From NCBI GenBank assembly GCA_032622095.1, contig CP136069.1:3954976-4018975 (forward strand): a stretch of DNA of 64,000 nucleotides, written 5' to 3'. Of this stretch, positions 1 to 62,124 are shown one piece after another. The position numbers were made by a program, and so were the translations under genes. This stretch comes from Siphonodentalium dalli (taxonomy: Eukaryota; Mollusca; Scaphopoda; Gadilida; Siphonodentaliidae). The number at the start of each line of letters is the position of its first letter. Position 1 is the first letter of the stretch. Below the pieces are notes generated by a model that saw only the letters and a list, made by a program, of their open reading frames with translations, made no database searches and was not told the DNA's origin.

Positions 1-9
1 ACCATCATC

Positions 10-41
<32 letters not shown>

Positions 42-2270: not shown

Positions 2271-2303
<33 letters not shown>

Positions 2304-13400: not shown

Positions 13401-13849
13401 CATCATCAATAGCATCACCATCATCATCATCAACATCATCAGTATCATCATCATCATCGTAATCATCATTAACATCGTCATCTCACCATCATCATCAATA
13501 GCATCACCATCATCATTAACATCGTCATCTCACCATCATCATCAATAGCATCACCATCATCATTAACATCGTCATCTCACCATCATCATCAATAGCATCA
13601 CCATCATCATTAACATCGTCATTTCACCATCATCATCAATAGCATCACCATCATCATTAACATCGTCATCTCACCATCATCATCAATAGCATCACCATCA
13701 TCATTAACATCGTCATCTCACCATCATCATCAATAGCATCACCATCATCATTAACATCGTCATCTCACCATCATCATCAATAGCATCACCATCATCATCA
13801 CCATAATCATCATCATCGTAATCATTATTATCATCGTCATCTCACCATC
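10421..13849. repeat. ATC satellite, middle block
   Basis: The same satellite as at 1-7887. Between about 13440 and 13790 it is strikingly homogeneous: a 47-bp unit (CATCGTCATCTCACC core, then AATAGCATCACC, then CATTAA) is repeated about seven times with hardly a change. Elsewhere the block is heterogeneous. An earlier block at about 10790-11310 shows a duplicated stretch of roughly 240 bp. Confidence 0.96.
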
Positions 13850-14105
13850 TGTCGGGAAGTACGGATAAATATCGGGAAGATCGAAGAAGTCGGACAAGCG
13901 AAGTACTGCATATATCACCTTTACTGTCAGCTACATAATCACAATCTCATTCAATAACACAAGCACATATTGTCACATTCACAGTTCACTCACGCGCATA
14001 TAATAGCGCGTGCGTAATCACATGCATTGTCTGTTGATCACTCAGCCACAGTCGTTACCACAATTGACCGTCCGATATATACAGGGGCGTATCTAATCCC
14101 CGACA
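13850..14105 (-). repeat. Long terminal repeat (3' LTR relative to the ORF)
   Basis: 256 bp, ends TG..CA. It contains a short palindrome with an AT-rich centre at 13992-14011 (ACGCGC..GCGCGT around ATATAATA) that could serve as a TATA-like core promoter. The gag-like ORF reads into it and stops at 14093-14095. A short purine run GGAGGA lies against its edge on the minus strand and may be the polypurine tract. Confidence 0.93.
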
Positions 14106-15187: not shown

Positions 15188-15201
15188 GTTGTGTCCAGGA
15201 T

Positions 15202-15217
15202 CCGGTTCGAGGGACCA
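15202..15217 (-). other. Primer-binding-site-like sequence
   Basis: On the minus strand, two bases after the upstream LTR, the sequence TGGTCCCTCGAACCGG begins with the TGG expected to pair with a tRNA 3' CCA. Its complement contains GGTTCGA, a T-arm-like string, but too close to CCA for a full-length tRNA 3' end. Priming may therefore use an atypical or truncated tRNA. The position is right; the partner is unknown. Confidence 0.55.
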
Positions 15218-15219
15218 AA

Positions 15220-15475
15220 TGTCGGGAAGTACGGATAAGTATCGGGAAGATCGAAGAAGTCGGACAAGCGAAGTACTGCATATATCACCTTTACTGTCAG
15301 CTACATAATCACAATCTCATTCAATAACACAAGCACATATTGTCACATTCACAGTTCACTCACGCGCATATAATAGCGCGTGCGTAATCACATGCATTGT
15401 CTGTTGATCACTCAGCCACAGTCGTTACCACAATTGACCGTCCGATATATACAGGGGCGTATCTAATCCCCGACA
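15220..15475 (-). repeat. Long terminal repeat (5' LTR relative to the ORF)
   Basis: 256 bp, matching 13850-14105 except for one base I can see (A/G about 20 bases from the TGTCGGG end). The same TATA-like palindrome is at 15362-15381. In this copy it would drive transcription toward lower coordinates, into the gag-like ORF. Confidence 0.93.
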
Positions 15476-17840: not shown

Positions 17841-18556
17841 CATTTTATTTTAACAGGGTTCCCGTGGATTGACGGTACATACACCACGTATATAGATGTG
17901 TAACCCGACATGTTTTATTTTAACAGGGTTCCCGTGGATTGACGGTACATACACCACGTATATAGATGTGTAACGCGACATGTTTTATTTTAACAGGGTT
18001 CCTGTGGATTGACGGTACATACACCACGTATATAGATGTGTAACGCGACATGTTTTATTTTAACAGGGTTCCCGTTGATTGGCGGTACATACACCACGTA
18101 TATAGATGTGTAACGCGACATGTTTTATTTTAACAGGGTTCCCGTTGATTGGCGGTACATACAGCACGTATATAGATGTGTAACCCGACATGTTTTATTT
18201 TAACAGGGTTCCCGTGGATTGACGGTACATACACCACGTATATAGATGTGTAACGCGACATGTTTTATTTTAACAGGGTTCCCGTGGATTGACGGTACAT
18301 ACACCACGTATATAGATGTGTATCGCGACATGTTTTATTTTAACAGGGTTCCCGTGGATTGACGGTACATGCACCACGTATATAGATGTGTAACGCGACA
18401 TGTTTTATTTTAACAGGGTTCCCGTGGATTGACGGTACATACACCACGTATATAGATGTGTAACGCGACATGTTTTATTTTAACAGGGTTCCCGTGGATT
18501 GACGGTACATACACCACGTATATAGATGTGTAACGCGACATGTTTTATTTTAACAG
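17841..18556 (+). repeat. 70-bp tandem array of 3' splice sites before the lectin exon
   Basis: Exact 70-bp period: the string TTTTATTTTAACAG ends at 17856 and every 70 bp after that up to 18556, giving 11 acceptors. In ten units the acceptor is followed by GGTTCCCGTGGATTGACGG, which in the phase of the downstream exon reads FPWIDGTYTTYIDV and then a stop. WIDG is a typical start of the second half of a C-type lectin domain. So each unit looks like a copy of intron end plus exon start. The eleventh acceptor is followed by the intact lectin exon. Units differ at only a few bases. Confidence 0.95.
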
Positions 18557-18774
18557 ATTATGGCGTGTCGATTGACGGCAGGGATAGAGACGGATCGGAC
18601 GTCATGATGACGTGGGACGGAGTGAGGCTGCCGTTCGTTGACTGGGCGCCCGGTGAGCCATACGGCGGGGATGAGGACTGCATGGGCGCCGGGTACTACT
18701 CCTCTCGGGGCCGGTATCTGATGTTTGACTATACATGCAGCTACGGACGCCAGTCTGTGTGCGAGATGATGTGA
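18557..18774 (+). CDS. C-type lectin domain terminal exon (partial gene)
   Basis: It starts after the polypyrimidine-AG acceptor at 18543-18556 in phase 1 and ends with TGA at 18772-18774, giving about 71 residues. It reads YGVSIDGRDRDGSDV, MMTWDGVRLPFVDWAPGEP, YGGDEDCMGAGYYSSRG, MFDYTCSYGRQSVCEMM. This is the C-terminal half of a C-type lectin domain: the W.DG...F..W.PGEP loop, then ED C, the final C, and a C.E end. The Ca/sugar-binding EPN motif is altered to EPY and the WND motif to MFD, so classical mannose-type Ca binding is doubtful. Upstream exons (signal peptide, first half of the domain) are not visible between the satellite and the array. It may be an active gene end or a stranded exon. 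Confidence 0.75.
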
Positions 18775-22123: not shown

Positions 22124-22505
22124 CCCTTTACCCAACAAACCGGCCAAATAAAGCTTCAACAGCCTAAAATATCTTCGGTCTGTCTCAATAGAACCATACA
22201 AATATGGATATCATTGGAACCGGCTCCTTGACCACATTGTGATAGTTACAGTTATGCCCTGTGCCAATGCATTCTCTTATATATGCGAGTCGACCATAGG
22301 TCGCCTCGCATATATAAGAGAATGCATTGGCCTAAAAAAAATCTTTTTTTAACACTTTTTACCATTTTTTCTTACATTCTTTAACAATTTTATAATTTTT
22401 AATTTGTTAAGCCAATGCATTCTCTTATATATGCGAGGCGACCTATGGTCGACTCGCATATATAAGAGAATGCATTGGCACAGGGCCGTTCTGTTGGGTA
22501 AAGGG
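22124..22505. mobile_element. piggyBac-like MITE with double hairpin (copy A)
   Basis: The ends CCCTTTACCCAACA and TGTTGGGTAAAGGG are inverted. The right flank is TTAA; the left flank is TTAG, probably a mutated TTAA. The internal order is a left arm with GGCCAAATAAAGCTTCAACA, a CCCTGTGCC-flanked hairpin, an AT-rich spacer, a second hairpin in inverse orientation, and GGCACAGGG. TTAA target sites and CCC-starting ends are the hallmark of piggyBac-type elements. No ORF: non-autonomous. Confidence 0.85.
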
Positions 22506-42900: not shown

Positions 42901-45900
42901 GTAACAAATATTTTAGTCATTAGTTGTGAAACGCCCAGAAAATGAGGATTTAATTTGACCAAGATTTATAAAATGTAATGTTTAACCCACAGGGAGCCTC
43001 ACACAGATGAAAGCATGCACTACAGAGTGTCGTCTGCTGCAGTCTATGTGGGGCTCTCTAAAGGGTTAAGCATAAATTACAACTCACTGTGTTGTTCTGT
43101 AGAAGCTGGCTCACATAGTGATTCTGGTGCTGACGGCTCTAAGTATTTCATGAATAGGTCGTCTGGTATATTTTTTTCACTCAGTGATGTTCTAGTCCGG
43201 GATCGAGTCACAGGACTCCTAGGAACCGACGTCGGCTCCAGATATTTCGCCAGATCAAACACGTCCTCATTTGTTGTCTCTTCCTCTTGAGTATCATTCG
43301 CAAATCGTACTGTTTTATTTGCATGGACACTTCGTCTGAAATTCATGGAAATATACGATTTGAAGGGATTCAAGGCCTTTAAAGTGTATAGCCCATAGAG
43401 AGCCCCACATAGATTGGAGCAGACAACACTCCATAGTTCATGCTTCCATCTGTGTGAGGCTCCCTGTGGGTTCATAAGTCAATAAGTATATAGCCCATAG
43501 AGAGCCCCACATAGATTGGAGCATACGACACTCCATAGTTCATGCTTCCATCTGTGTGAGGCTCCCTGTGGGTTCATTCAAAATAACATAAAAGTCTGTA
43601 AAACAACTACATGTGTATCATCAATAAGTATATAGCCCATAGAGAGCCCCACATAGATTTGAGCAGACGACACTCCATAATTCATGCTTCCTTCTGTGTG
43701 AGGCTCCCTGTGGGTTCATAAGTCAATAAGTATATAGCCCATAGAGAGCCCCACATAGATTGGAGCATACGACACACCATAGTTCATGCTTCCATCTGTG
43801 TGAGGCTCCCTGTGGGTTCATTCAAAATAACATATATTTTTTTTTTATTAAAGATGGATTATCTCTTTAAAGATGGATTATCTCTTTAAATAAGAAATTT
43901 GAGATAGTTGCCTGGGTGTAAAATATGAACTGAAGACCCCTGTCCGGAAAGGCTTCTATCAATTAATATTGATTTTATTTTGAATATTTTATTGGGCCCG
44001 TTTATTTGTTTAGGCCAAAACGAAGAATACCTGTGTTTAGGGTAACCCGCCCGCCCCTACTCAAAACCTGCCGCCAAATTCCATTTTATCGTTTTTCAAA
44101 AATTTCCTCCGACTTCATTTTATTTTTTCGTAATTAGGAATTCGCGACTACGGAATTAGCTTAAACAAGTAAACCATTTTCGTGCAAATATCGTCAATTC
44201 ACGAAAAACGGAAGTGCCGCCATTGTTGTTGTAGTATATTCGTATTCCCTCGTCATTGTTCGGCAAACACGCGATAATTGTGCCGGAATATGTATTAACT
44301 AGCAAATCGAAAGTAACCGGATATTTTGCCGATTGCGCATGGCGATTGAATATGGCAGAAACACTTCCGTGTGCGGATAGATCCTGAGTTTTAGCTATTA
44401 AACTTCACAAATGCGTTCATATGAATCAGAATAGAAACATCATGGCGCCTGTCAACTATAGCACAGACATGTTATCGTGCGTGAACCGGTACCACATAGA
44501 TTCTGAACTGACAGAAAAGGACATAGTAATAAAATGTCGGATTAAAAATAATTCTGACACTTTTGAAATCGACCCAAAGCTCAAAATTCCATTATTATAG
44601 TTTATCCACCTCTCACCGCATCCACACTGAAAATTATAAGCCTGACATAACATGAGTCTGTATGTACCCATGCAGTAGGAGTGGTATGTGCCTGGTAGAA
44701 CTTAATTTTTTCCTAGTAGAACAATTTCTCATTAAATATTCATTAGTTCTACAGAAATCCGGACCCGATGAATCAACATCTTCTGTGTCGCAATGATCGG
44801 AATGCAACAGTCATAGGGTAATCAATGCACATATATTGTTCTTGGTGCTTACTTTGTTTTACAGGTGTTAATGCCACCACCGCTTTACATATTGATTATG
44901 TTATGTATGTCACGTTGGCGTTGCCGCATGTACATGTATGTGCCATTTACAATGGAGGAACTCTTGTTAAATTCACCTTCGGAGTTGAATATTTCGCAAA
45001 ATTTCTTAGTATTCGAGTCGGTGGATAAACAAAATATCATAAGTGTCTTGTGTGGGAAATTGAAAAGTAATATGTCCACTCGTAGGTTTTGGCCTGTAAT
45101 ATCCGAGCTTCAGCATGAACATAAACCGTTTAATTTCCAACACTAGACACTTATTCTACATGTATATATAATATCATTTAATATCATGCTGTATACATGT
45201 CATTGAACTTCTGCAACACCATTAAACTGATTAAAGCTACCATGACATTGATTAGTGTGACAATGACTTGCCCAAGTTATATACGAGTGACACTGGCAGA
45301 CGATTAGAAGGCACGAATACTTAAATACTATTCCCCGTGAAAAATAAAATGAAAAAATAAAATAAAATGAAGTACCGCCCGCCCGCCCCTGTTTTTTTCC
45401 CTCATGTTACCCTAAACTCAGGTATTCTTCCTTTTGGCCTTATTTTTAGAACAGAACATTCGGGCGATACCATAGCCATAGAATTATTGGTATTTTTTCA
45501 GGATTTAGTCGGAAATATGGCTTGTTGCCATTCATTGTTGCCATTCATCGGAACGCTATCGTCGAGAGCTGTCTGATAAATGGCAACAACCCATATTTCC
45601 GACTAAATCTTGAAAAATTACACATAATTCTGCTGTGATTAAGGGGTCAATTACTTTGGGCATTACTGTTTAACAGCTTATAACTTAGGATGAATCGTAC
45701 GTGACACGTGATGGAGCAACCACACACACTGTGCCTCAAATTTTTATCGGCAACATAACGCTGAGAATAACAGCATGTACATGTATGTAACAGCATGCAA
45801 TTGGCCCCAGTGGAAACGACATGACAAGTACGTATCATCATGGATTGTGCAATATGTCTGGATTTTAGCCCACAAAGCCAACATGGCGTAAATGAACCAT

Positions 45901-48900: not shown

Positions 48901-51900
48901 AAGTTATCGTGCTAACCGCCTTGAAATATCTAAAAATCAACAAAGGGCCATCATAAACTCTGGCAAAAATGTTGAGTTGGGTTGCAGCAACTATGCGAAA
49001 CATGGGCTTGGATTGAAAATTAATGAATTGTAACTGGATATCGTACTAGAGGTGCCACGAGTATTGATTTTGATAATCGATAATCGGTCGTCAATAATCG
49101 ACTATAATCGATTAATCGTACCTAATATTAATAACATCAGCGGAAGTTATATAATTCTGTAATATGGCCTATTGACTAGGTGCTGGTTAACTGCACTGTC
49201 GCTGGTTGTTTTAGGCATCTGCTGATGTAATTTTTATGTTAATAAAGTGCGTCAAAATTACTATTAATACTAATGAGCACAATGTATTGAATAACAGCAC
49301 AGTTCTCAGCGATGATATGGTTTTTATATTTGTGAGTTCATTAGACCGAACGTAGCGATTAATTTCAGTGTTATGAATAGCCAAATATTCAAACAATATA
49401 AAAGTAGGAATCTACGATAGACTGCCGGCGATTCCTAAAAAAGGAATCGAATCGGAAACTAAAAGTGTCATAAAACTACCAAAGTGTGGTTAACAATCAC
49501 AAAGGTGTTCCCCCACACGCACATTGCAGGACTCGATCAGAACAAGGTAAGTATTTGATAATAGTCAGTTTCATTCAGCATTCACCACACGATATGCGAT
49601 AGCCTTTACTAGTAACTTCTATGTATACTTATGCAAACAAAGTATACTCGCAATTACATCGCTGATTAAAATGCCATATATTTTGGTTCCATGCATTTAG
49701 AGAGAATGTCAATCAACTTCCCAATGGTCCAATCAGATTCAAGGGCGAGTGCATTCAGTTCATTGAACACGGTGACAGTTGGCACATTGCAAAGACAAAG
49801 TGCCACCTTTCAAGTATAAATATACAACGATGTCGCCATGACCCTACGAGAAACCATGTCGCATCATCAAATGAACTGCTGACTGTTTGCTACATATATT
49901 AGTCAGTACTCATGTTATTGGAATCTCTTTGATACACGTTCGAAGGATGTTAACCCCTCGGTTGTAGATTAAACTGTAGAACAAACACGGTATTCAGTAA
50001 TACATGGCATTTTCTGACGTCCGAAATAAATTGCGTAGATTAATCGACGATGGTAATGGTAATCGATTATCAGCTTTATCAACGGTTCATCGATTATACG
50101 ATTAATAGTGGCACCCCTATATCGTACACAACACTGTTGAGGAGTCTGACAAATTCACAAAAATAAGCTGATTAAGTGCCACGGACCTGGTCAGTTTTTA
50201 AAATCGATCAAGCAAGTCATTTGCAGAATGAGGTCCCCAGAGGGTGAATTTAGTGATGCTAGCCCACTATGCAGATAGCGTCACTAAATTCACCCTCTGG
50301 GGACCTCATTCTGCAAATGACAGACACACTAAACTCAGGCTTGCTTGTAACCCCCAACCAGGAAACTAAGTTGTTTTTTTTTGGGGCTTACCTGAGTGAT
50401 CTCCGTCTCGGTTTGTTTTCTTCCAAACTTAAAACCATCGTCTTCATCTCGCTGACTGACTCATCAAGTGCTAATTTCTTCGACACCAAAGATTGTCTCT
50501 GTGACCTACGTCTCGGCTCTACTTTGGGAGTTGAGTCCTTGAGCAACGGGCTCGGAACGACAGGAACATAACTCCGCCTTGGTTTGAGAATATATGCAGG
50601 ATCGGAAGAATTTGCTCCCGTAATGTCCATTGTTGGCACAAGGTTCTCTTTATCAACAGGAGCGGTTTCATTGTCTGATTCTGGTTCCATTTCTTTTGAA
50701 TCTAAATTCAGAGGTAGTTGACTAGGAGATGAATTGGAGGCAGGCGACGTCCTCAGTCTCCTCGTAGGTGTTCCAGCTGCAATGTAAAAAATTTAACCCT
50801 TTCTATACTATGCATATAGTCAGCAATCTGTAACGAGTTGAAACGTTATGTGACATGCGCTCTACTTTTGGCATTAAATGAATCTTGTTTTTGTGGGGTA
50901 CGTTCTAAAACTATTTTCAAAATTCCAATAAACCACTCCGGGGTGCAGCTTCCACCTCAAAATTCATGTCATCAGAACGAGGAGCAATTTGTCTGCGAGA
51001 AATTGGGACCTTGGTCATCATTACATTTAGCCTCGAATCTTCTTTAATATGCCTAGCAGACAACCTCCCCTTTCTTTTGACATCCATACATTTGTGCACC
51101 ACCTTCATTATGTGGGGAAATTATATGACGGATATGTTGTAAGCCATTATTTCTTTCAATATACTTATGTTGACAAACGGAAAGGCCATAAGGTCCGTCA
51201 GCCAGTGCTCCATTCTGACTTGTTATTGTCATTCCGGAAGGCTAGGTGTGATTTTCGTTGACAGATGTGTTACCTTGTCAGGCACCCACTTACCTGTATT
51301 GGTTAACCTTGAAAACAATGTAACAAATTTAACCCTTTCTGTACTAAATGGATTCTCCCATTCCGTTATAAAATTATACATTGAAATTGTCTAATAAAAT
51401 AATATGCAAGGCATATAGATCGACCCCGGCATGATCTTAACCCTTTACCCAACAAAACGGCCAAAACCGGCCAAATAAAGCTTCAACAGCCTAAAATATC
51501 TTCGGTCTGTCTCAATAGAACCATACACATATGGATATCATTGGAACCGGCTCCTTGACCACATTGTGATAGTTACAGTTATGCCCTGTGCCAATGCATT
51601 CTCTTATATATGCGAGTCGACCATAGGTCGCCTCGCATATATAAGAGAATGCATTGGCCTAAAAAAAATCTTTTTTTAATACTTTTTACCATTTTTTCTT
51701 ACATTCTTTAACAATTTTATAATTTTTAATGTGTTAAGCCAATGCATTCTCTTATATATGCGAGGCGACCTATGGTCGACTCGCATATATAAGAGAATGC
51801 ATTGGCACAGGGCCATTCTGTTGGGTAAAGGGTTAAGGGTAAGAACATTGCAAGGATCATGTAAATATTCATGAAACTCTATATGCCTATTTAGGTCTTA

Positions 51901-54900
51901 TCTTGGAGATCGTTTTGGATGCAAGTAGACTTCAATAATTATGCCTAAAAATTTACCCATTCCCTACCCAGTAGACTTCAATAATTATGCCTAAAAATTT
52001 ACCCATTCCCTACCCAGTAGACTTCAATAATTATGCCTAAAAATTTACCCATTCCCTACCCAGTAGACTTCAATAATTATGCCTAAAAATTTACCCATTC
52101 CCTACCCAGTAGACTTCAATAATTATGCCTACAAATTTACACATTCCCTACCCAGTAGACTTCAATAATTATGCCTATAAATATAGCCCATTCCCTACCC
52201 AGTAGACTTCAATAATTATGCCTAAAAATATAGCCCATTCCCTACCCAGTAGACTTCAATAATTATGCCTAAAAATTTACACATTCCCTACCCAGTAGGC
52301 TTCAATAATTATGCCTATAAAAATAGCCCATTCCCTACCAAGTATCTGTAAAGATATCCCATCATATCAGACAGATGTATTATCTGATTACCCAATTCAT
52401 GGGTTTTTTTTCAAGTTGCTCATAGAAACTGATAACTTTAACCCTTACATGACATGGAGTTTCCTGAAATTTTTGTGAAAACCCTGTGCCAATGAATTGT
52501 CTTATATATGCGAGTCACCCATAGGGAGCCTCGCATATATAAGAGAATATATTGGCCTAACAATATTTACCTTGACCTTGTAAGCCAGTGCATTCTATTA
52601 TAGGAAGACTCGCATATATAAGATAATGCACTGGCAAAGAATCTTTAATGCTGCACCAGCGCAACTCCCATCATGAAAGGGTTAACAAGAAAAATCACAT
52701 TAATTTTGTAAAATAAATGTCCATCTATGGTTGAACAATAAAACAAAATTTCAGGCTATAACATTTTTTGAGTAGGAAGTGGGCAATCAAACCCGATTTA
52801 AATTTTGGGCAAATCAAAGTTTACTATTTATATCTCTTAGATTTGGGCCAAAGAAAAAAACCTCTGCGTTTCCGGTTTCCCGACCTACCTGCCGACATTG
52901 GGCCAACCTGGATTTGTTTCCCAAAAGTTTCTTTTTTGTTTGTTCATGTAATTGACATGTAAAACACATCTTATATTGCTAAATATATACTATATACTAT
53001 GTTTACATTAAGCAGCAATAATTTTAGATGGAATTTTCAAAAACAATTTACTTCTATTAAAATACATGTCTACAGTGGTTGCAGATGAATCGCAATCTCA
53101 GGAATAAATCTGTTCTGAGAGTCGCACGGCCAGGTGAAAATGCGATGTCAACATGATGGCATGGTGCATATTCTGGGTATATTGTCAGATATAAAACTAG
53201 TTTTCTGTCAGAAACTTCAGCAACTGGATACAATGGTATTGAGAATACCAACTTTTATATTGTTTTTAGAATATGGTGCATTAGCCATTATTATATAGAT
53301 GGATTTGGAAAAAAATAAAAAATTGGCAAAAAAAAAAACATTTCCAACCTGTCTACCTGGATTTTTTTTCCCTACTTGCCAACCTGGATATTTTTGCTCA
53401 AGAAATCGGAAACAAACAAGTTTTTTTTGCTGGCCTTATTCATATCTTGTGTGAATGGAATAACAGGGTTAGAAAATAATCTTAAAAACAAGGGCAAGTC
53501 CATCTGTGAATTGGGAATTTTGGGAACAGAAATTTGGAAAACCTGACTATTCGAGAAAACCTGACTATTCGAGAAAACCTGACTATTCTCTCTTGTGAAA
53601 CATTTTAACCCTTTCCGTTGCTTAAAAAATACATAAACAAGCCTTGAAATAGGGTGTCTGTCATTTGCAGAATGAGGTCCCAAAAGGGTGAATTTAGTGA
53701 TGCTACCCCGAATAGCGGGCTAGCATCACCAAATTCACCCTCTGGGAACCTCATTTTGCTGGGGACCTCATTCTGCAAATGACAGACACCCTATTTCAAG
53801 GCTTGTACATAAATAGTGTAAAGAAAACAGTCAATGAAAGGATTTTGTGTGAATATATTGTAGAGGATTTGATATGAATGTAGCAGTTAATTTACCTTCA
53901 CATAAGAAATGAACGGCGGTTTCAATGTGGTCACAGGATTTTGACCGCGAGAAAAATTCAGCAAACTGCATGAACCCCGAAGGGGTTCATGCGGAGTTTG
54001 CTGATTTTTTATCGCGGTCAAAACCCATGACCACGTTGAATCCGCCGTTTATTATTTATATTTATATACTTACACTCTTTAAAACACTTCTCCAAATATG
54101 TCAGTGATTTCGTCAAAAAAACTTTTTCGTGCTATTTCGCTGTATTTTCATATTTCGCTTTTTCGTTGTATTTCATATTTCGATAATTCGCTATATTTGA
54201 CATATTATGGGATATGGGATTATATGATAACCAACATTCTGATAGTCAATCGAATATCTCGTGCCACCCGTGCTCGCGATTAGATGCAACTAGCCATCCA
54301 ATCGTGAACCTCGATTACATATTGTTTGCTATCAAATCCTTGGCGTACTCGCTGACTAGATACTCAAGCAGTCGGTAATGTCCGACAATCCCCGGTGATT
54401 TCCGGGACCAATGTGTTCATAAACCTATGAACGACATTGAAAGTGACGTCACGTTACGTTTATGAACGCATTGAATAAGGGGGCGTGTCTACCGTAACGC
54501 TATGGGGAAATCGGAAGAGATATCAGGTGTATGTAAATATAGTGATATGACGGAACCTTCACGGGACCGACGACCATGAACAATCCGGCATCAAACACTT
54601 TATTCTTACCTTCACAGTGATATGACGGAACCTTCACGGGACCGACGACCATGAACAATCCGGCATCAAACACTTTATTCTTACCTTCACAGTGATATGA
54701 CGGAACCTTCACGGGACCGACGACCATGAACAATCCGGCATCAAACACTTTATTCTTACCTTCACAGTGATATGACGGAACCTTCACGGGACCGACGACC
54801 ATGAACAATCCGGCATCAAACACTTTATTCTTACCTTCACAGTGATATGACGGAACCTTCACGGGACTGACGACCATGAACAATCCGGCATCAAACACTT

Positions 54901-57900
54901 TATTCTTACCTTCACAGTGATATGACGGAACCTTCACGGGACTGACGACCATGAACAATCCGGCATCAAACACTTTATTCTCTGGCTTTTCTTTTATATC
55001 GGATCCTTCATCCACCTGTTTCTTCATCTGTTTTCTAAAATCGGCAAACTTAGACTTCCCCATAGGTTTCTTCGCCATCTGTTCAGCTTTTTTCTAAGGA
55101 AAAAAAATTTACAACTTTATATCCACAATGCATAACAAGGATTTAAAACAAAAAGTGTGCTGCATTTTGTGAAATCATAACATTAAAACAATACGTTAGA
55201 TAAAATTGGAACTTTCAAATTTAGCGATACGGCCGAAAAAACTAAATAATGTGGTTTATAGATGTATTTGCCCGAAAAATAATAGATTCGTAGGCTTTTA
55301 ATTGTTTAATATAATATATATTTATTTTTTGTGTGTGTGTAGTTTTAGAGACTATAGATATTCACAGAATGTATTTCTAGAAAAGTCCCTCTGCATATTG
55401 CAGTGGAATGAGTACAATGTGATTAATTTACTACCGAAAATACCAAACAGCAAAAATATTTCAATATTGAATAAATATGTAATAATTCTTGTATTAATGC
55501 AAACTAAACACTAAAATCAAACTTTAAGACAATATTTTAGCTACTAGTTGATTCCAACTCAACTTCAGGCCGATTAGCAGGACGAAATAAGCTAAAATAC
55601 AATGACTACAAATTTTTACAAATTTCAATGCCAATATTTAATAGGGTCCTTGTGAAATATCATACAGCGTGGGTCGATTGCATGGGTATAAAAGTCGCAA
55701 TTAGTGTGCAGTACAGAAAGAGCGCATAATTTCAGAACAACAATTCCGTTCAGGATTCATTTCTCAATTTTGCATACGCTATTTCAGTATACCGCGTTGT
55801 TTTGAAATTTCGATGATATGATTAGAGATTTTCCAACAATTAGATCGCAGATTAGATTCGAACAAAAATCTGTGATTTGCAGGACCCTAGCCATTGACAT
55901 GAAATACCAACAGTCATAAGTTTGGTCTACAAGGGAGGAGGGGGTGCAGTTACAAGGAGGGGGTGCAGTTACAAGGGGAGGGGGTGCAGTTGGAAGTTGG
56001 ACACCCCATAACCATGTTCAGGTTATTGAAACTGAAACCAAGTATCATATTAATAACCCTTTCTATACTAAATACTCATTAAAGAGTAGTTACCTTATTA
56101 ACCCTCTCTATATACTAAATACTCATTGAAGAGTAGTTCCCTTAGGAAATGTTCAGATAATAAGTTCAACAAATCACTAGAGATGGGCGGTATTGAATTT
56201 CAATCTCGGTATCGGTAAATTTTCATTGATTTACCTCGGTAACAGTACAGTAATCGGTATTGCTATTAAACTATAAGACAAGAACAGAGGTTCCCGGTAA
56301 ATTGCGGTAATTCAAGTTTTTAACTGAACAATGAAAACATTTTTGGGAAACAAGTTTTTTAAAATGGTTAATTTCCCAAGGCATGTGGGGAAGACGAGGA
56401 ATTCCCCGTCCGAAGAAATATAGTAAATTTCATTCGTCGTTAAATTTGGAGTACTCTGCTCCACAAATCATATTCGGAAACATCACAATAGTTATTTTTA
56501 GATCATTTCTCTAATACGACTTCTGATTGGTTTTTAGTTCCGACAATCTTAAAGCGACATTCGGTCATGACATTCATTATTAATTTTGACAGCTTCAGGT
56601 CAATTGAAGCCCATTTTTTAGCCACTATTCACACATCTCTTTGAAGATTTACACGCACGCTGTCGCAAAAGAACAAAGAATAAGAGATTGCATCATTGCA
56701 TGACTACAATATCTATATGTGTCAATTTTGTCACCTTTTCGTGAGTGAATAGAATTGTGAGTAGTAATCAGTGATCACAATTCACAAATCCCATTCAATA
56801 GTCGCAACGCCGAAATAAATCCGCTGTGCAAACACAACATTGAGAATTTGAGCAAAACACATTGTAAAGATCGAATTCTTAGAATTTAATCAATTGATGG
56901 ATCTGTTCTATTTTTAGAAAGTGAAAGTAAGATTTTGATTCACTGTATAAATGAACTGTCCACATTCATTTGAAAATTGTCTTGATCACAATTAAGGAGT
57001 GTTTACTGTCAGAGAAACTTTACTCAAGACACACAGGTTGGCAACATATGAATAATTTAAGTACCGAAAATTCGGTATTTTTAGTTTTGATTCGGTACAG
57101 TAAATCGGTATTACGTTGATACCGACACCGCACGGTAAATACCGAGTACCGCTCATCTCTAAAAATCACCATAGGTACTTTTTGTTAAACTTATTAGCTT
57201 AACGTTTCCCGATTATAAATGAATCACATTCTGTTCTTGTTATATCTGTTTATCTGTCTGCTTGTATTACATTAACGCCCCTCCAAATGAATAATAGACA
57301 GTTCCAATTTATACTTTTATAAATAAATGGGAGAATCCATTTAGTATAGATAGGGGTAATATCACCCGTGAGACGGATAATTTCATGTTCGGTTCTTACC
57401 TATTAAACACAGCCTTCTTCACGTTTGTTTCTTCCACCCAATTGTTCTCTTTAACTTACCCTATTAAACACACCTTCTTCACGGTTTTTTCTTCCACCCA
57501 ATTGTTCTCTTTAACCTACCCTATTAAACACAGCCTTCTTCACGGTTTTTTCTTCCACCCAATTGTTCTCTTTAACTTACCCTATTAAACACAGCCTTCT
57601 TCACGGTTTTTTCTTCCACCCAATTGTTCTCTTTAACTTACCCTATTAAACACAGCCTTCTTCATGGTTTTTTCTTCCACCCAATTGTTCTCTTTAACTT
57701 ACTCTATTAAACACAGCCTTCTTCACGGTTTTTTCTTCCACCCAATTGTTCTCTTTAACTTACCCTATTAAACACAGCCTTCTTCACGGTTTTTTCTTCC
57801 ACCCAATTGTTCTCTTTAAGCTTGATGAGGTTCATGAACTTCTTATGAACATCTTCAACCTGGGATTAAAATCAGAAAATAAGTAAACAGTTACAAAAAC

Positions 57901-60900
57901 AAACCAATAAATGTAGCTACCGGTATCTTCTGGAAACCAATACAAAAAAAGGTCAGCAGACCACAGTGTCCCAGAAAACGTGGCAAGTCGATGCCACTTT
58001 GTTAAAGAAATTAAAAAAAATGTTGAAATTTTCTTAGTCGAAAAGGGTTAATAACTCTATAAAAAAATAATTTTTCCGTCTTCTATATACATGTTGCACA
58101 TCTCCAATATGTGGGTAACAATACACTGAAGTTTCAAATATCTATGATCAAAACTGTAATAGGAGTTGATTACACCATGAAGGTACCCTCATACAGAAAA
58201 TTAAAAAAAATGTTGAAATTTTCTAAACCGAAAAGGGTTAATAACTCTGTCAAAAAATAATTGTTCCGAAAACTGTAGGAGTTGATTACACCATGAAGGT
58301 ACTCAAAAGTGTGACGGATGGACGGACGGTACGACGAACGAACGGACGTAGCCCGTTTCTATAGTCCCCCAAAAATAAATTTTTCGAAGGACAACTAATC
58401 TCTAACTTGAAAAAGGCCCATAACATTGTTAAAGGCCTGGATGGCCTTCATGGTGGGTATGCTGTTAAAATAGTCACAATCGTCAAGTTCGTATGCTAAG
58501 TTATATCCTACAATGCTTCATAACAAACCTGTGTTAACCCTTTACCCAACAAACCGGCCAAAAACGCCCAAATAAGGCTTCAACAGCCTAAAATATCTTC
58601 GGTCTGTCTCAATAGAACCATACAAATATGGATATCACTGGAACCGGCTCCTTGACCACATTGTGATAGTTACAGTTATGCCCTGTGCCAATACATTCTC
58701 TTATATATGCGAGTCGACCATAGGTCGCCTCGCATATATAAGAGAATGCATTGGCCTAAAAAAAATCTTTTTTTAACACTTTTTACCATTTTTTCTTATA
58801 TTCTTTAACAATTTTATAATTTTTAATGTGTTAAGCCAATGCATTCTCTTATATATGCGAGGCGACCTATGGTCGACTCGCATATATAAGAGAATGCATT
58901 GGCACAGGGCCCTTCTGTTGGGTAAAGGGTTAAAATCATATCCCATGCTTCTTAACGAACCTGTATATAAATCATATCCCAGAACGCTTGTAAATCATCA
59001 CCGTTTACTTCTTTCTCGTCAGCCTTTATTATCTTGAACTCAAAATTATCAACGAGTCCCGAAAACTGTTTGAATCTCTGGGACATCAATAGCTGAGCCT
59101 GACCGATTGTCGTCCTTAACAGACCACTGACTGAAAAGAATGAAAGAAACGGCATGAAAAGAACGATAGAAACAGCATTAATTATGGTGGGTCTTAACTG
59201 ACGACTGACTGAAAAGAATGAAAGAAACGGCATGAAAAGAACGAAAGAAACAGCATTAATTATGGGTGGGTCTTAACTGACCACTGACTGAAAAGAATGA
59301 AAGAAACGTCATGAAAAGAACGAAAGAAACAGCATTAATTATGGGTGGGTCTTAACTGACCACTGACTGAAAAGAATGAAAGAAACGTCATGAAAAGAAC
59401 GAAAGAAACAGCATTTAATTATGGGTGGGTCTTAACTGACCACTGACTGAAAAGAATGAAAGAAACGGCATGAAAAGAACGAAAGAAACGGCATTTAATT
59501 ATGGGTGGGTCTTAACTAACCACTGACTGAAAAGAATGAAAGAAATGGCATTTAATGATGGGTGGGTCTTAACAGGGGCGACATTGAGCGGCATGACCAA
59601 TAACTGAAATAAACTAAAGGTTTGACTTTTGACTGTCACAATGGGACTAAGGATACCCCCCCCCCCCCCCCCAAATTTTTAAAACACTAAGATGTTTCAC
59701 ATGTCAGTAAACATTTAGTTCAAATAATAAAATAATAGATTGCCATTGCAGGTGCACAACCCTAACCCTAATCCTAAACCTATTCACCGAAAAAAGTAGG
59801 CATAAAAGCTCGGACAAAATATATTCATGTTGGAAAATGTTCTAAGTCGAAAAAGGGGAATAACATCACAAAAAAAAAGTCGGACAGATGTCAAAATCGC
59901 AGGTGCACAGGTTCCCATGGTACTAAATATCTGTGCCATATTTTTTAAAATTGAATTAAAAATGTAGAAATAAAAGCTCAGACAAAATTATACATGTTGT
60001 GAAAATGTTCTAAGTCGAAAAAGGGGGGTTAACTCCACCAAAAAAAGTCTGACAGATGTCATAATCACAGGTGCACAGGTTCCCATGGTGGTTGATGTCT
60101 GTGCCAAGTTTCACGGAAAATGATAACAAAAACGACTGAGAAAAACTCCGGACAAATTTGATTCCATGGAGGGACAAGGTCGCCGACCACAGTGTCGCCC
60201 GAAACGGTGGCTAACTCCAAAATTGGCAGTGTTATTGAAATCGGTTAATAATTGTTCGAGTTATTGCGCTTATGACAAACAAACTGGCGAGAAATTGTGA
60301 AACTAAGGTGAATAACTCAGGTAAGAAAAATCAGTCAAAATTGGTTGTCGAACCAACCCATCCAAGATAGTGTGGCAACCAACTCATAATTTTTATTTTA
60401 TTTAAATCTGTTAATATTTGTTCGAGTTATTGCGCTTACGACCGGATCGGATGGACGGCTACAAAGACGGATGGTGCTGATTTCTATAGTCCCCCGAAAT
60501 TTATTTTCGGGGGACAATTAAAGAACTATCAAGCTAGAGTATGTGCTAAAGGGAGCCTCAAGCTACAGTATATATATCCCTATTTAATGATGCAAGTCAT
60601 CAGCTTGAAATTGCGGGATTCGATACAAGTGACAATGCAGAACTCTCAGCTAAAACAGACCCATTTCCTGGTTCAGATCTCCCCCTAAAACAGACCCATT
60701 TCCTGGTTCAGATCTCCCCCTAAAAGACCCATTTCCTGGTTCTGATCTCCCCCTAAAACAGACCCATTTCCTGGTTCAGATCTCCCCCTAAAACAGACCC
60801 ATTTCCTGGTTCAGATCTCCCCCTAAAAGACCCATTTCCTGGTTCAGATCTCCCCCTAAAACAGACCCATTTCCTGGTTCAGATCTCCCCCTAAAAGACC

Positions 60901-61632
60901 CTTTCCTGGTTCTGATCTAGCCCTAAAACAAACCCATTTCCTGGTTCAGATCTCCCCCTAAAACAGACCCATTTCCTGGTTCAGAACTTCAGATCACCCC
61001 CTAAAACAGACCCATTTCCTGGTTCAGATCTTCTCCTAAAACAGACCCATTTCCTGGTTCAGATCTCCCCCTAAAACAGAGTGAGACCCATTTCCTGGTT
61101 CAGATCTCCCCTAAAACAGACCCATTTCCTGGTTCAGATCTCCCCCAATTAATTATTGTAATTGGAAACCATGTTCAAACATATGTTAAAAACATGAAGA
61201 ATTCGTCTAAAATCTTGGTAAAAAATGTGTCACTTGATTGGCTGAATTTTGCACAAAATAAATCACATGCAATCTATTAACTAGCATTTACGGACATCTA
61301 TTCAGGGATACCTACAGCAGGCAACACGAAAAAATAAATATAAAATCACGTACTTGCATGATAAAATATAAAAACTCCTACTTGAATGATAAAATATAAA
61401 AACTCGTACTTGCATGATTTATAAAATACAATATCACGTACTTGCATGATTTTCTTACTTTTTTGGCCTGAGAAATGTATATTGATTTTTTACTACTTAC
61501 TTTCGTCAGTAATGTTGCCAGAACATTGATCGCTGATCTCTGTCCATGTGTCACAATGCTGCTGCAGAATGGCCGATTCAGACACCAGGAGGTTTCGGAA
61601 ATGATTTGCACTCTGCCGAGAAGAATCATCTG
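39779..61632 (-). CDS. DLGAP5/HURP-like gene, 3' part, seven exons
   Basis: Seven minus-strand exons (61632-61501, 59130-58961, 57859-57764, 55093-54910, 50776-50392, 43335-43088, 39951-39779) join with matching phases (1,0,0,1,2,1) into 461 codons plus TGA. The product shows the GKAP-type domain (QQHCDTW; TTIGQAQLLMSQRFKQFSGL; FWDMIYIQVEDVHKKF; LIKLKENNW), then NKVFDAGLFMVVSPVK, matching the HURP motif I know as VFDAGFF.VESPVK, then a KEN box and a basic Ser/Thr-Pro-rich tail. HURP proteins bundle kinetochore microtubules, are Aurora A and Ran/importin targets, and are degraded by APC/C. The N-terminal microtubule-binding part must lie upstream, beyond the window or unrecognised. Three exon borders are buried in tandem arrays. 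Exon choice is my inference from homology and phase; transcripts would confirm it. Confidence 0.87.
39990..40227. mobile_element. piggyBac-like MITE, CCCTTTGAGTGCCAGG ends
   Basis: CCCTTTGAGTGCCAGGGGCC and CCTGGCACTCAAAGGG are inverted; the right flank is TTAA, the left ATAA. Inside are a hairpin module (40110-40180) next to an A-run of about 24 bases and a small palindrome GGGCCGATCTCATCGGCCC. It is 39 bp upstream (intron side) of the terminal exon of the HURP-like gene. Confidence 0.8.
40255..40585. repeat. Degenerate AT-rich tandem repeat, about 35-75 bp
   Basis: Recurring AATATTAATAATAATACC, ACACTATTTTAAATCGCC and TACCCTAA phrases, about seven units with indels. It is followed by gene-free AT-rich intron sequence to about 42980, including a G-run at 41470-41484 and two copies of a CCAA(A/G)ATGGCTGCT segment (41650-41740 and 41810-41890). 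Confidence 0.85.
42980..43069. mobile_element. piggyBac-like foldback MITE of 86 bp
   Basis: TTAACCCACAGGGAGCCTCA, CACAGATGAAAGCATGCACT, GAGTGTCGTCTGCTGCAGTC and TGTGGGGCTCTCTAAAGGGT, then TTAA. Ends are inverted and flanked by TTAA on both sides. It ends 18 bp from the donor of HURP-like exon f. Confidence 0.85.
43088..43335 (-). CDS. HURP-like exon f: C-terminal tail
   Basis: Acceptor CATGAATTTCAG, donor CACA|GTGAGT, 248 bp. It encodes (R)RSVHANKTVRFANDTQEEE, TTNEDVFDLAKYLEPTSV, PRSPVTRSRTRTSLSEKN, IPDDLFMKYLEPSAPESL and CEPASTEQH. KYLEPTSVP and KYLEPSAPE form an internal short repeat of a possible docking motif. MITEs flank it at 18 bp (donor side) and about 52 bp (acceptor side). Confidence 0.82.
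43387..43822. repeat. Cluster of four foldback MITE copies
   Basis: Four copies of a 90-bp element (ATAGCCCATAGAGAGCCCCA, CATAGATTGGAGCAGACGAC, ACTCCATAGTTCATGCTTCC, TGTGTGAGGCTCCCTGTGGG) at about 43387, 43491, 43632 and 43735. They are arranged as two tandem pairs with repeated spacers (TCATAAGTCAATAAGTA; CATTCAAAATAACATA), so a two-element block of about 244 bp was duplicated. Confidence 0.92.
44013..45439. mobile_element. PIF/Harbinger-like non-autonomous element, 1.43 kb
   Basis: The ends GGCCAAAACGAAGAATACCT (then GTGTTTAGGGTAAC) and AGGTATTCTTCCTTTTGGCC (preceded by GTTACCCTAAACTC) are inverted over about 34 bp. TTA occurs on both sides, the 3-bp TWA duplication typical of PIF/Harbinger. 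CGCCCGCCCCT follows the left end and also occurs at about 45376-45388 near the right end. No transposase or Myb-like frame is recognised. It lies in the intron between HURP-like exons e and f. Confidence 0.75.
45497..45668. mobile_element. Partial Tc1/mariner-like MITE
   Basis: TTTAGTCGGAAATATGGCTT, GTTGCCATTCATCGGAA, AACCCATATTTCCGACTAAA, ATTACACATAATTCTGC and GGGCATTACTGT match the interior and right end of 27837-27963. The left end is lost and replaced by an inverted interior copy, as at 38517. Confidence 0.8.
46146..47100. repeat. Right member of an 11-kb-spaced inverted repeat
   Basis: Inverse of 34735-35405, running from GAATGCACTCAGAGAGATGC to ACTGTTGTGCGAGCGCACGT. An extra segment at about 46370-46690 interrupts the match. 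The minus frame 46588-46986 shares VKIRQSYDKN and HQRVYRLLRDLHRL with the other copy, in different states of decay. It is probably a transposon relic in intron 5 of the HURP-like gene. Confidence 0.85.
47470..48851. mobile_element. hAT-like element, 1.38 kb, with 7-bp direct flanks
   Basis: The ends CAGGGTTTCCGCCAGG and CCTGGCGGAAACCCTG are a perfect 16-bp inversion, flanked by TGTAAGA on both sides (47463-47469 and 48852-48858). CAGGG ends are usual for hAT. Inside, a + frame near 48780 reads ATFKCVMCFSNTDSF, a possible zinc-finger fragment, but no transposase core is seen. Non-autonomous or heavily deleted. Confidence 0.82.
49047..50119. mobile_element. hAT-like element, 1.07 kb, with 8-bp target duplication
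   Basis: The ends TAGAGGTGCCAC and GTGGCACCCCTA are inverted with one mismatch; the exact 8-bp duplication TATCGTAC lies at 49039-49046 and 50120-50127. Both ends continue with clustered ATCGATTA/TAATCGAT words in inverse orientation. The interior has no transposase frame. It lies in intron 5 of the HURP-like gene, about 270 bp beyond the donor of exon e. Confidence 0.92.
50218..50346. repeat. Foldback repeat (CATTTGCAGAATGAGGTCCC family)
   Basis: GCAAGTCATTTGCAGAATGA, GGTCCCCAGAGGGTGAATTT and AGTGATGCTAGCC.. are answered by AGCGTCACTAAATTCACCCT, CTGGGGACCTCATTCTGCAA and ATGACAGAC.. GGCTTGC. A long hairpin, 47 bp from the donor of exon e. Related to 53636-53806 and to the half copy at 27295-27372. 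Confidence 0.92.
50392..50776 (-). CDS. HURP-like exon e: KEN box and Ser-Pro-rich region
   Basis: Acceptor TTTTTTACATTGCAG, donor CTCAG|GTAAGC, 385 bp. It encodes GTPTRRLRTSPASNSSPSQ, then EPESDNETAPVDKENLVP, then KPRRSYVPVVPSPLLKDSTP and a basic KVEPRRRSQRQSLVSKK stretch ending KPRRRSLR. KEN (about 50651-50643) is a classical APC/C degron, and several S/T-P sites suit Cdk phosphorylation. No globular domain. A shadow frame on the + strand (50269-50571) has no support. Confidence 0.87.
51441..51832. mobile_element. piggyBac-like MITE with double hairpin (copy B)
   Basis: Intact TTAA flanks at 51437-51440 and 51833-51836. Ends CCCTTTACCCAACA / TGTTGGGTAAAGGG. Interior as in copy A, with nearly identical sequence, which implies recent spread. 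Intron 4 of the HURP-like gene. Confidence 0.92.
51924..52346. repeat. 46-bp minisatellite, about 9 units
   Basis: AGTAGACTTCAATAATTATG, CCTAAAAATTTACCCATTCC and CTACCC, exact 46-bp period with TATAGCCCATT and TACACATT variants. Intronic. Confidence 0.95.
52438..52685. mobile_element. MITE with TTAACCCTT.CATGA ends
   Basis: TTTAACCCTTACATGACATG and CATCATGAAAGGGTTAAC are inverted with TTAA-like flanks. It contains two hairpin-module derivatives (52486-52557 and 52578-52636) with GTCACCCATAGGGAGCC loops, and TTAATGCTGCACCAGCGCAA. It is the fullest copy of the family seen in pieces at 26044, 33290, 38757 and 42205. Confidence 0.82.
52690..53630. other. Intronic stretch without recognised features
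   Basis: AT-rich. At 53539-53595 an 18-bp unit (GAAAACCTGACTATTCGA) is repeated three times. No coding region. Confidence 0.5.
53636..53806. repeat. Foldback repeat with CAAGCCTTGAAATAGGGTGT ends
   Basis: Left arm: CAAGCCTTGAAATAGGGTGT, CTGTCATTTGCAGAATGAGG, GTGAATTTAGTGATGCTA. The right arm is its inverse, ending ACACCCTATTTCAAGGCTTG. A short extra CCTCATTTTGCTGGGGA interrupts the right arm. A strong hairpin of about 75 bp in the intron transcript. Confidence 0.93.
53912..54049. repeat. Near-perfect 138-bp palindrome
   Basis: AACGGCGG..TTCAA.GTGGTCA, GGATTTTGACCGCGA, TCAGCAAACT.CATGAACCCC, then GAA, then the inverse arm GGGGTTCATG, AGTTTGCTGA, TCGCGGTCAAAACC and TGACCAC.TTGAA.CCGCCGTT. Only a few mismatches, so the arms are kept nearly identical. 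Structure suggests a foldback element; no target duplication is evident. Confidence 0.93.
54541..54981 (-). repeat. 75-bp array duplicating exon d end and its donor
   Basis: Exact 75-bp period (54541, 54616, 54691, 54766, 54841, 54916). On the minus strand each unit encodes NKVFDAGLFMVV(S/G)PVK VPSYHCEGK and carries TGTGAAGGTAAGAAT, a strong 5' splice site. Five donors are intact; the outermost unit ends in TATCACTATATTTACA and has lost it. The two innermost units keep SPVK; the four outer ones read GPVK, losing the Ser-Pro site. Confidence 0.96.
54910..55093 (-). CDS. HURP-like exon d: VFDAG motif, with repeated donors
   Basis: Acceptor TTTTCCTTAG, donor TGTGAAG|GTAAGAAT. It encodes KKAEQMAKKPMGKSKFADFR, KQMKKQVDEGSDIKEKPE, NKVFDAGLFMVVSPVK, VPSYHCE. 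The last 25 codons plus donor are tandemly repeated downstream in the same frame, so the exon could end at any of five donors (54910, 54835, 54760, 54685, 54610), adding 25 residues each time. The innermost donor is taken here as the ancestral one; it phases correctly with exon e. Confidence 0.88.
55933..55998. repeat. G-rich 21-bp triplicate
   Basis: GGGGGTGCAGTTACAAGG(A/G) repeated three times. Weakly G4-like on the + strand. The surrounding 55100-56170 has no recognised gene; AT-rich intron. Confidence 0.8.
56178..57161. mobile_element. hAT-like element, 984 bp, with near-perfect 8-bp duplication
   Basis: The ends TAGAGATGGGCGGTA and TACCGCTCATCTCTA are inverted with one or two mismatches. 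Flanks are CAAATCAC and AAAATCAC (7 of 8). Both ends are rich in CGGTA/TACCG words (TCGGTATCGGTAAATT; AATCGGTATTACG). No transposase frame. Intron 3 of the HURP-like gene. Confidence 0.9.
57385..57825 (-). repeat. 61-bp array duplicating exon c end and its donor
   Basis: On the minus strand the unit is TTAAAGAGAACAATTGGGTG, GAAGAAAAAACCGTGAAGAA, GGCTGTGTTTAATAGGGTAA, period 61 (one of 60). It has seven donor copies: the innermost is used for exon c, the outermost reads AATAG|GTAAGAAC, the others AGG|GTAAGT or variants (GGGTAGGT, AGAGTAAGT). Because 61 is not a multiple of three and each unit carries an in-frame TAA right after the donor, longer exons would be truncated. Confidence 0.95.
57764..57859 (-). 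CDS. HURP-like exon c: end of GKAP domain
   Basis: Acceptor TTTTAATCCCAG, donor AATAGG|GTAAGT, exactly 32 codons: VEDVHKKFMNLIKLKENNWV, EEKTVKKAVFNR. It continues FWDM.YIQ from exon b, as in human HURP (QIEDV..KF..L.KLEE..W). The second half of the exon and its donor form the unit of a 61-bp array continuing into the intron. Confidence 0.9.
58000..58400. repeat. Diverged dispersed repeat with GGACGGAC tail
   Basis: TTAAAAAAAATGTTGAAATT, TCGAAAAGGGTTAATAACTC and AAAAAATAATT.TTCCG occur twice (58010 and 58200), followed by GTGACGGATGGACGGACGG and ATAGTCCCCCAAAAATAAAT. A related sequence lies at 59800-60520. This looks like a SINE- or Helitron-like dispersed family; the class is not established. 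Confidence 0.65.
58538..58929. mobile_element. piggyBac-like MITE with double hairpin (copy C)
   Basis: TTAA at 58534-58537 and 58930-58933, ends CCCTTTACCCAACA / TGTTGGGTAAAGGG. Almost the same sequence and orientation as copies A and B. It ends 31 bp from the donor of HURP-like exon b. Confidence 0.92.
58961..59130 (-). CDS. HURP-like exon b: GKAP domain core
   Basis: Acceptor TTCATTCTTTTCAG, donor CAG|GTTCGT. It encodes (I)SGLLRTTIGQAQLLMSQRF, KQFSGLVDNFEFKI, IKADEKEVNGDDLQAFWDMI, YIQ. This is the most conserved part of the family: IGQA.LLM..RFKQF.GLVD and DL..FWDM. The acceptor is the innermost of six near-identical acceptors. The donor lies 31 bp from a piggyBac-like MITE. Confidence 0.92.
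59126..59575 (-). repeat. 78-80-bp array duplicating exon b acceptor
   Basis: On the minus strand each unit contains GCCGTTTCTTTCATTCTTTT then CAG|TCAGTGGTCAGTTAAGAC and CCACC(C)ATAATTAATGCTG. Acceptors lie at exon starts of about 59130, 59208, 59287, 59366, 59446 and 59526. The innermost leads into the conserved coding sequence (TCAGTGGTCTGTTAAGG). The next one out would extend the exon in frame by 26 hydrophobic residues. Confidence 0.95.
59590..60530. repeat. Dispersed repeat with internal duplications
   Basis: Repeated phrases in the same order (AAAGCTC.GACAAAAT, AAAATGTTCTAAGTCGAAAA, AAGTC.GACAGATGTCA, GCACAGGTTCCCATGGT) occur two or three times between 59800 and 60170. The stretch ends with a CGGATGGACGGCTACAAAGA, CTATAGTCCCCCGAAATTTA, TTTCGGGGGAC hairpin. 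It also has a C-run at 59657-59672. Intron 1 of this gene part; class unknown. Confidence 0.65.
60651..61147. repeat. 29-35-bp minisatellite, about 15 units
   Basis: AGACCCATTTCCTGGTTCAG and ATCTCCCCCTAAAAC with alternating 35- and 32-bp units. Intronic. Confidence 0.95.
61346..61455. repeat. Short tandem repeat next to exon a donor
   Basis: TCACGTACTTGCATGAT(A/T), AAAATATAAAAACTC.TACTT; about four units of 27-36 bp. Ends some 46 bp from the donor of HURP-like exon a. Confidence 0.85.
61501..61632 (-). CDS. HURP-like exon a: GKAP domain helix 1
   Basis: Acceptor TATTCATTCAG, exon CA GAT GAT.., donor A|GTAAGTAG after ..ACTGACGAA. It encodes DDSSRQSANHFRNLLVSES, AILQQHCDTWTEISDQ, CSGNITDE. 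This fits the start of the HURP/GKAP domain (FR..L.SE...L..HC..W). A neighbouring frame through the same bases (QQMILLGRVQII) is longer but lacks similarity and does not phase with the next exon. A piggyBac-like MITE starts 55 bp upstream. Confidence 0.85.
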
Positions 61633-61686
61633 CTGAATGAATAATACAAAAATATGAATCTTTCTGCAATTGTGAAATTGTGTTAA

Positions 61687-62124
61687 CCCTTTACCCAACA
61701 GAAGGGCCCTGTGCCAAAGCATTCTCTTATATATGCGAGTTGACCATAGGTCGCCTCGCATATATAAGAGAATGCATTGGCTTAACACATATTAAAAATG
61801 ATAAAATTGTCAAAGAATGTAGAAAAATATTATAAAAAAAGTTAAAAAATGTAAGAACAAATTATAAAATTGTTAAAGAATGTAAGAAAAAATGGTAAAA
61901 AAAAGATTTTTTTTAGGCCAATGCATTCTCTTATATATGCGAGGCGACCTATGGTCGACTCACATATATAAGAGAATGCATTGGCACAGGGCATAACTGT
62001 AACCATCACAATGTGGTCAATGAACCGATTCCAATGATATCCATATTTGTATGGTGTTATTGAGACAGACCTAAGATATTTTAGGCTGTTGAAGCTTTAT
62101 TTGGCCGTTTTGTTGGGTAAAGTG
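61687..62124. mobile_element. piggyBac-like MITE with double hairpin (copy D, inverted)
   Basis: TTAA at 61683-61686 and 62125-62128. Same family as A-C but inserted in the other orientation, with a longer AT-rich spacer between the hairpins made of duplicated AAATTGTTAAAGAATGTA-type sequence. It starts 55 bp upstream of the exon a acceptor. Confidence 0.9.

Follow-up and report, generated by a model that had tools for sequence, protein, structure and literature searches.

Tandem repeats that straddle exon-intron borders have been described in amphioxus under the name of mirages, with units of 10-160 bp that span a donor or an acceptor together with adjoining coding bases (PMC3087553, PMC3902484; the original description is Canestro 2002, cited through PMC3087553). 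Many mirage copies keep the AG/GT signals, the inner copies are homogenised to the exclusion of the boundary copy, and copy number varies, with 6 and 3 units in two alleles of one globin (PMC3087553, PMC3902484). As reported there, mirages are known from a handful of lancelet genes, and reverse transcription PCR suggested normal splicing. Here we describe arrays of this kind in the scaphopod mollusc Siphonodentalium dalli (assembly GCA_032622095.1; 2.23 Gb in 9 contigs), where three of them multiply splice sites of a single DLGAP5/HURP gene within a stretch of 64,000 nucleotides (hereafter the window: contig CP136069.1, positions 3,954,976 to 4,018,975, that is 3.95-4.02 Mb of contig 9), and we report that such arrays cross more borders than random placement predicts in an independent sample of kinesin exons from the same genome.

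Two further systems bear on the comparison. Intron 7 of human F7 carries variable 37-bp repeats at the exon 7 donor, and among their 5' splice sites the one furthest upstream is the sole site used (PMC6627357). Tandem duplication of an AGGT-bearing segment has been proposed as a route to intron gain (the Rogers model, named in PMC3087553), and the potato RNA-dependent RNA polymerase (RdRp) gene is cited as a case of it (PMC4974935).

Multiplied splice sites in HURP and among kinesin exons

The minus-strand gene of the window is DLGAP5/HURP. The protein typed from exons a to e matches the Pfam GKAP family (PF03359, E 9e-23) and human DLGAP5 (PDB 8x9p, E 6e-27), the latter alignment running through the VFDAGxF..SP motif. 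Exon borders are predictions from homology and matching splice phases, and the phases agree at each join (a-b 1, b-c 0, c-d 0, d-e 1, e-f 2). An initial annotation of this DNA had placed tandem arrays over the exon b acceptor and the exon c and exon d donors, and these proved real when recovered with Tandem Repeats Finder (TRF) and set against the homology- and phase-based borders. Its counts of 6 acceptors at exon b, 7 donors at exon c and 5 donors at exon d also hold, as does its description of splice sites multiplied together with adjoining coding bases. Five introns of the gene have both borders inside the window, or six if the one upstream of exon a is counted, and three of them carry an array.

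The unit of the exon b array holds a pyrimidine tract, AG and about 16 exon bases, the first exon-type base falling at 59526, 59446, 59366, 59287, 59208 and 59130. The 61-bp unit at exon c consists of 56 exon bases and GTAAG. At exon d the 75-bp unit amounts to 25 codons in frame, with the last exon base at 54910, 54835, 54760, 54685 and 54610 for the five donors; all five share one phase and each is compatible with exon e, which joins any of them in phase 1, while the sixth and last copy has no donor.

The initial annotation had considered arrays centred on borders hard to attribute to chance. Within the window 4 of 12 borders are covered, one of them merely touched by the fourth array described below, against 0.29-0.42 expected (P 0.0002-0.0009), and HURP alone gives 3 of 11 against 0.27-0.38 (P 0.003-0.007); both are post hoc tests on arrays collapsed to one unit, and the excess in the window by itself is suggestive. 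An independent sample was drawn from matches to the kinesin motor domain (PF00225) in the same 2.23-Gb genome, chosen blind to repeats. We counted 115 of 123 matches: 95 lay in 60 regions (batch 1, L009-L068, 234,865 bp), and the remaining 20 came from 18 regions of shorter length (L069-L086). The other 8 stood outside the count, although two of their genes each supplied an exon for the paralogue comparison alone. TRF and inspection showed that 13 of the 230 kinesin borders have their splice site inside an array, each in a different exon. Eleven are donors (L011, L012, L017, L039, L048, L068, L071, L073, L079, L080, L081) and two are acceptors (L086, and a second exon of L068), a difference significant at P 0.022 in this strict count of small numbers. 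In L017 the donor is multiplied to about 30 copies. One kinesin exon (L073, C7:207979598-207979738) has arrays at both borders, a 30-bp unit at the donor (14.5 copies) and a 69-bp unit at the acceptor (2.6 copies); the latter has its edge exactly at the AG and does not enter the strict count. Arrays in L012 (3686-3879), L018, L031, L043, L050 and L066 lie near borders and not over them, and were excluded on inspection. A 40-bp array of 48.9 copies in L058 overlaps the end of the match and stops 2 bases before the acceptor; it enters neither the spanning nor the non-spanning tally.

How much overlap chance alone would produce depends on the null. We reduced each array to one unit and placed it at random within the same loci, since no border can come to lie inside an array unless the one unit it grew from already crossed that border; raw array coverage was rejected as a null because it inflates chance overlap by the copy number. 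With all arrays, 13 crossed kinesin borders compare with 5.8 expected (P 0.004), and restriction to arrays with 2.5 copies or more leaves 10 against 3.6 (P 0.001). The corresponding figures are 13 against 3.9 (P 1.5e-4) and 10 against 2.5 (P 5e-5) for units up to 130 bp, and 13 against 3.9 (P 2e-4) and 10 against 1.8 (P 2e-5) when the array density of batch 1 is taken as the rate. In batch 1 alone, arrays with 2.5 copies or more give 6 against 1.9 (P 0.01). The excess of border arrays therefore holds in the kinesin sample, in line with the doubt about chance expressed in the initial annotation, and may be two- to five-fold in size.

It could nevertheless be argued that in a genome rich in minisatellites a few arrays will land on borders. 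Near kinesin exons, arrays with 2.5 copies or more occur roughly once every 10 kb (24 in 235 kb), and in the window arrays make up 12-14% of the sequence outside the CAT repeats, a plain coverage that predicts 1.5-1.7 of 12 borders; with the loosest list batch 1 by itself also falls short of significance (7 against 3.7, P 0.076). Coverage is the wrong yardstick, however. Once arrays are collapsed the joint P is 5e-5 to 0.004, and the sample had been picked irrespective of repeats, so that we regard chance as quite unlikely. The distribution of non-spanning arrays bears on the same question. In batch 1, those of at least 2.5 copies number 0 in the 18.3 kb within 100 bp of an exon, 3 in the 36.4 kb at 100-300 bp and 13 in the 117.9 kb at 300-1000 bp, which is no excess beside exons. 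The loose list has 1 array in the nearest bin (18.2 kb), 12 in the middle one (35.4 kb) and 21 in the farthest (116.1 kb).

The batch 1 result with the loosest list is one of several points that weigh against the explanation we favour below. The loose list is denser at 100-300 bp, so that some general crowding of arrays near exons may exist. Kinesin exon ends are the ends of hidden Markov model matches, adjusted by eye only near arrays, and they come from one gene family. Three of the 13 spanning arrays (L011, L080, L086) have about two copies each, and those of L080 and L086 take in only 3-5 exon bases. Finally, if the touching acceptor of L073 is counted, donors outnumber acceptors by 11 to 3 and the bias weakens to P 0.057.

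Probable working copies and a proposed persistence of border arrays

Both the reading frames and the decay of copies farther out point to the exon-adjoining copy as the working splice site. In exon c, the first donor (AATAGG/GTAAGT, where the slash marks the border) would join exon d in frame; the last copy on the intron side (AATAG/GTAAGA) lacks a base and falls out of frame, and read-through past the first donor would meet TAA after two codons. In exon d, copies 1 and 2 read SPVK, keeping the serine of the conserved motif aligned to human VFDAGFFRVESP, and copies 3-6 read GPVK. Among the kinesins, the decoys of L071 share changes that are not present in the exon copy, at L081 a decoy donor no longer has its GT, and the decoys of L079 are mutated. 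Multiples of three are not favoured among the unit lengths (8 of 18, P 0.22), which is what disuse of the decoys would predict.

The last result also bears on whether the arrays are put to use, with tandem donors providing a variable number of protein repeats or buffering mutations of the splice site. The exon d array is the candidate: its unit is a whole number of codons, its donors are equivalent in phase and fit exon e, and if the inner donors were used the 25-residue repeat could be present between one and five times. The units of exons c and b (61 and 79 bp), on the other hand, would break the frame, fewer than half of all units are multiples of three, and exon d copies 3-6 are without the conserved serine. 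We consider such a use very unlikely.

A different account would have borders amplified preferentially, either through their sequence (AG/GT-type words) or through events that accompany transcription, such as polymerase pausing, R-loops or U1 binding. It would fit the excess of border-crossing arrays and its greater strength at donors (11 to 2). Three copies of the donor word CAGGTAAG at a spacing of 38-68 bp also gave 5294 total matches against 959 for the reversed word. The totals may be inflated, since in the part listed most matches come from a few long arrays; counted by hand as loci, with 101.788 and 101.793 Mb taken as one, the word and its reverse gave 15 and 13 among the matches listed (first ~191 Mb of contig 1). 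These locus counts speak against the sequence version and lend no support to the proposal of the initial annotation that AG/GT-type words drive amplification. A four-fold preference would probably have shown, and a small one is compatible with the counts. Taken with its transcriptional version, preferential amplification seems to us rather unlikely, though less so than chance or use. The initial annotation had offered tolerance as its other option, such arrays being allowed because a working site always remains. This can explain the survival of the exon-side copy and fails to explain an excess over intronic arrays that should be equally tolerable. Intron creation, which it mentioned as a recognised idea, with the process here seemingly stuck in a multi-copy state, finds no support either: by frame, the borders under the arrays are already functional ones.

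We think it probable that the arrays are minisatellites of the mirage type in which the exon copy serves as the working site and the seed at the border persists. A short segment straddling a border would be duplicated in tandem, with slippage or end-joining at short direct repeats on either side of the border as the probable cause, and slippage and unequal exchange would then expand and homogenise the copies. Purifying selection would hold the exon-touching copy as the working site and leave the others to drift as intronic decoys. In donor arrays the working site would be transcribed first and met by the spliceosome ahead of the decoys, as in human F7 intron 7; at acceptors the decoys would come first, which may make donor arrays the more tolerable and would fit the donor bias. 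Because the conserved exon copy and its bracketing repeats could not be lost, border arrays might collapse and re-form indefinitely while intronic seeds erode, and we propose that they are over-represented for this reason. Actual splicing, the mechanism of duplication and the anchoring effect are in this sense inferred.

Several observations bear on these steps. Short direct repeats, which would have flanked the seed, occur at some array edges: CTGTTAAG is found twice at the exon b array of HURP, in the exon at the array edge and in the intron just beyond it, and there are TTAACCC at L048 and a 14-bp repeat at the window array that starts at 17843. Three paralogous kinesin exons that are 96-98% alike have 15, 15 and 12 units; copy number therefore changes, and the array is no assembly accident of one locus. 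Two points must be set on the other side, together with those listed above. Several arrays have no flanking direct repeat, and in the two longest donor arrays GT is still present in 28 of 29 decoys (L017) and 12 of 13 (L073), so that the decoys may have a role. They have not been cleared away at these two loci, where splicing would need to favour the exon-side site.

Whether exon borders are hot spots for arrays throughout this genome, we judge to be evenly balanced. On that reading about one exon in nine would have a multiplied splice site, at two to five times the random rate and mainly at donors, either because a conserved exon copy cannot be deleted or because transcription and splicing promote duplication there. 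In that case splicing would have to choose reliably, from as many as about 30 nearly identical sites, the one on the exon side.

Other features of the window

A fourth array, on the plus strand, ends at the acceptor of a terminal exon that resembles C-type lectins (Table 1). Its units hold the acceptor and a diverged exon-like stretch, and it only touches the border. All 26 PDB matches of the exon are to proteins that we take, from their names, to be C-type lectins; a Pfam search gave no match to this exon. Three other window arrays, with units of 46, 35 and 52 bp (at 51924, 60650 and 25187), lie away from known borders.

Table 1. Border arrays and predicted exons in the window (positions are those of the window; a slash marks the exon border)
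Feature	Position	Strand	Basis
Array of 10.2 copies (70-bp unit), its end coinciding with acceptor TTTTATTTTAACAG/	17843..18556	+	TRF; 11 copies of acceptor word
C-type-lectin-like terminal exon behind the array acceptor	18557..18771	+	26 PDB matches at E 1 or below (best 8e-4)
HURP exon f, putative last coding exon to stop	43077..43335	-	Phase-2 junction and open frame; no family match, weaker
HURP exon e	50392..50776	-	TTGCAG/CTGGAACACC, CTCAG/GTAAGC; frame only, no Pfam match
75-bp array (TRF 5.9 copies) over exon d donor, 6 units	54541..54981	-	TRF; 5 donors GAAG/GTAAGA
HURP exon d, to first donor	54910..55093	-	Homology through VFDAGLFMVVSPVK; acceptor phase 0, donor phase 1
61-bp array, 7.0 copies, over exon c donor	57395..57819	-	TRF; 7 donor copies
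HURP exon c, end at first tandem donor AATAGG/GTAAGT	57764..57859	-	Homology; phase 0 with first donor
HURP exon b	58961..59130	-	Homology; acceptor TTTTCAG/TCAGTGG phase 1, donor CAG/GTTCGT phase 0
79-bp array, 5.5 copies, over exon b acceptor	59115..59551	-	TRF; six TTTTCAG/TCAGT copies
HURP exon a (GKAP match starts here)	61502..61663	-	GKAP/DLGAP5 homology; TTGCAG/ acceptor, GACGAAA/GTAAGT donor, phase 1

About 11 kb of degenerate CAT/ATC repeats (1-7881 and 10418-13849) flank frames resembling a long interspersed nuclear element, which show an endonuclease/exonuclease domain (E 4e-8) and an RVT_1 match below the cut-off. An open frame of 407 residues on the minus strand (14096-15316) has a sole Pfam match, at E 0.22 and below the cut-off. 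A palindromic element (CCCTGTGCCAATGCATTCTCTTATATATGCGAG...) recurs at 22250-22490, 51600-51850, 58690-58910 and 61720-62000 and also in L073, where a relative of it comes after the donor array; it is probably a miniature inverted-repeat transposable element. Elsewhere in the genome, contig C4 at 274.2-275.5 Mb has at least 11 places with similar-scoring myosin-head matches, likely a cluster of gene copies.

Comparison with known systems

If about a tenth of sampled exons have a multiplied splice site, the genome would hold many natural experiments on how the spliceosome chooses among near-identical sites. Such a genome would also bear on whether border duplication feeds intron gain and on conserved exon ends as seeds of minisatellites. 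For claims of this kind the right null is one of arrays collapsed to a single unit, and not raw coverage. Our literature search found no genome-wide count and no case of a border array outside lancelets except F7, which was found by name; this is weak evidence, as subscription papers fell largely outside the search.

The arrays of S. dalli are of a known kind, mirages in another animal, and apparently at genome scale. Like the mirages of amphioxus, the tandem units in HURP and the kinesins span donors or acceptors with adjoining coding bases: three arrays in HURP and 13 of 230 kinesin borders do so, with one more touching. Both 5' and 3' boundaries are hit in HURP and in the kinesins, in L073 on a single exon; the AG/GT signals are kept in the units (HURP b, c and d, L017, L073); and length is unstable between copies, as the unit counts of the kinesin paralogues show. 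Mirages were described gene by gene in lancelets, whereas the arrays reported here were sampled across a 2.23-Gb genome against a null of random placement. The size and contig number of this genome do not fit Branchiostoma. Searches of it for the GFP family (PF01353) and for mollusc haemocyanin (PF14830) gave 0 hits each, in both cases with no positive control.

As in F7 intron 7, a donor is repeated in tandem, and frame and decay agree here with use of the first donor; F7 is a single gene whose donor usage was studied, whereas our arrays are known from sequence alone. With the Rogers model they share tandem duplication involving splice-type words, yet there the duplication creates an intron, and in S. 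dalli it multiplies borders that already exist.

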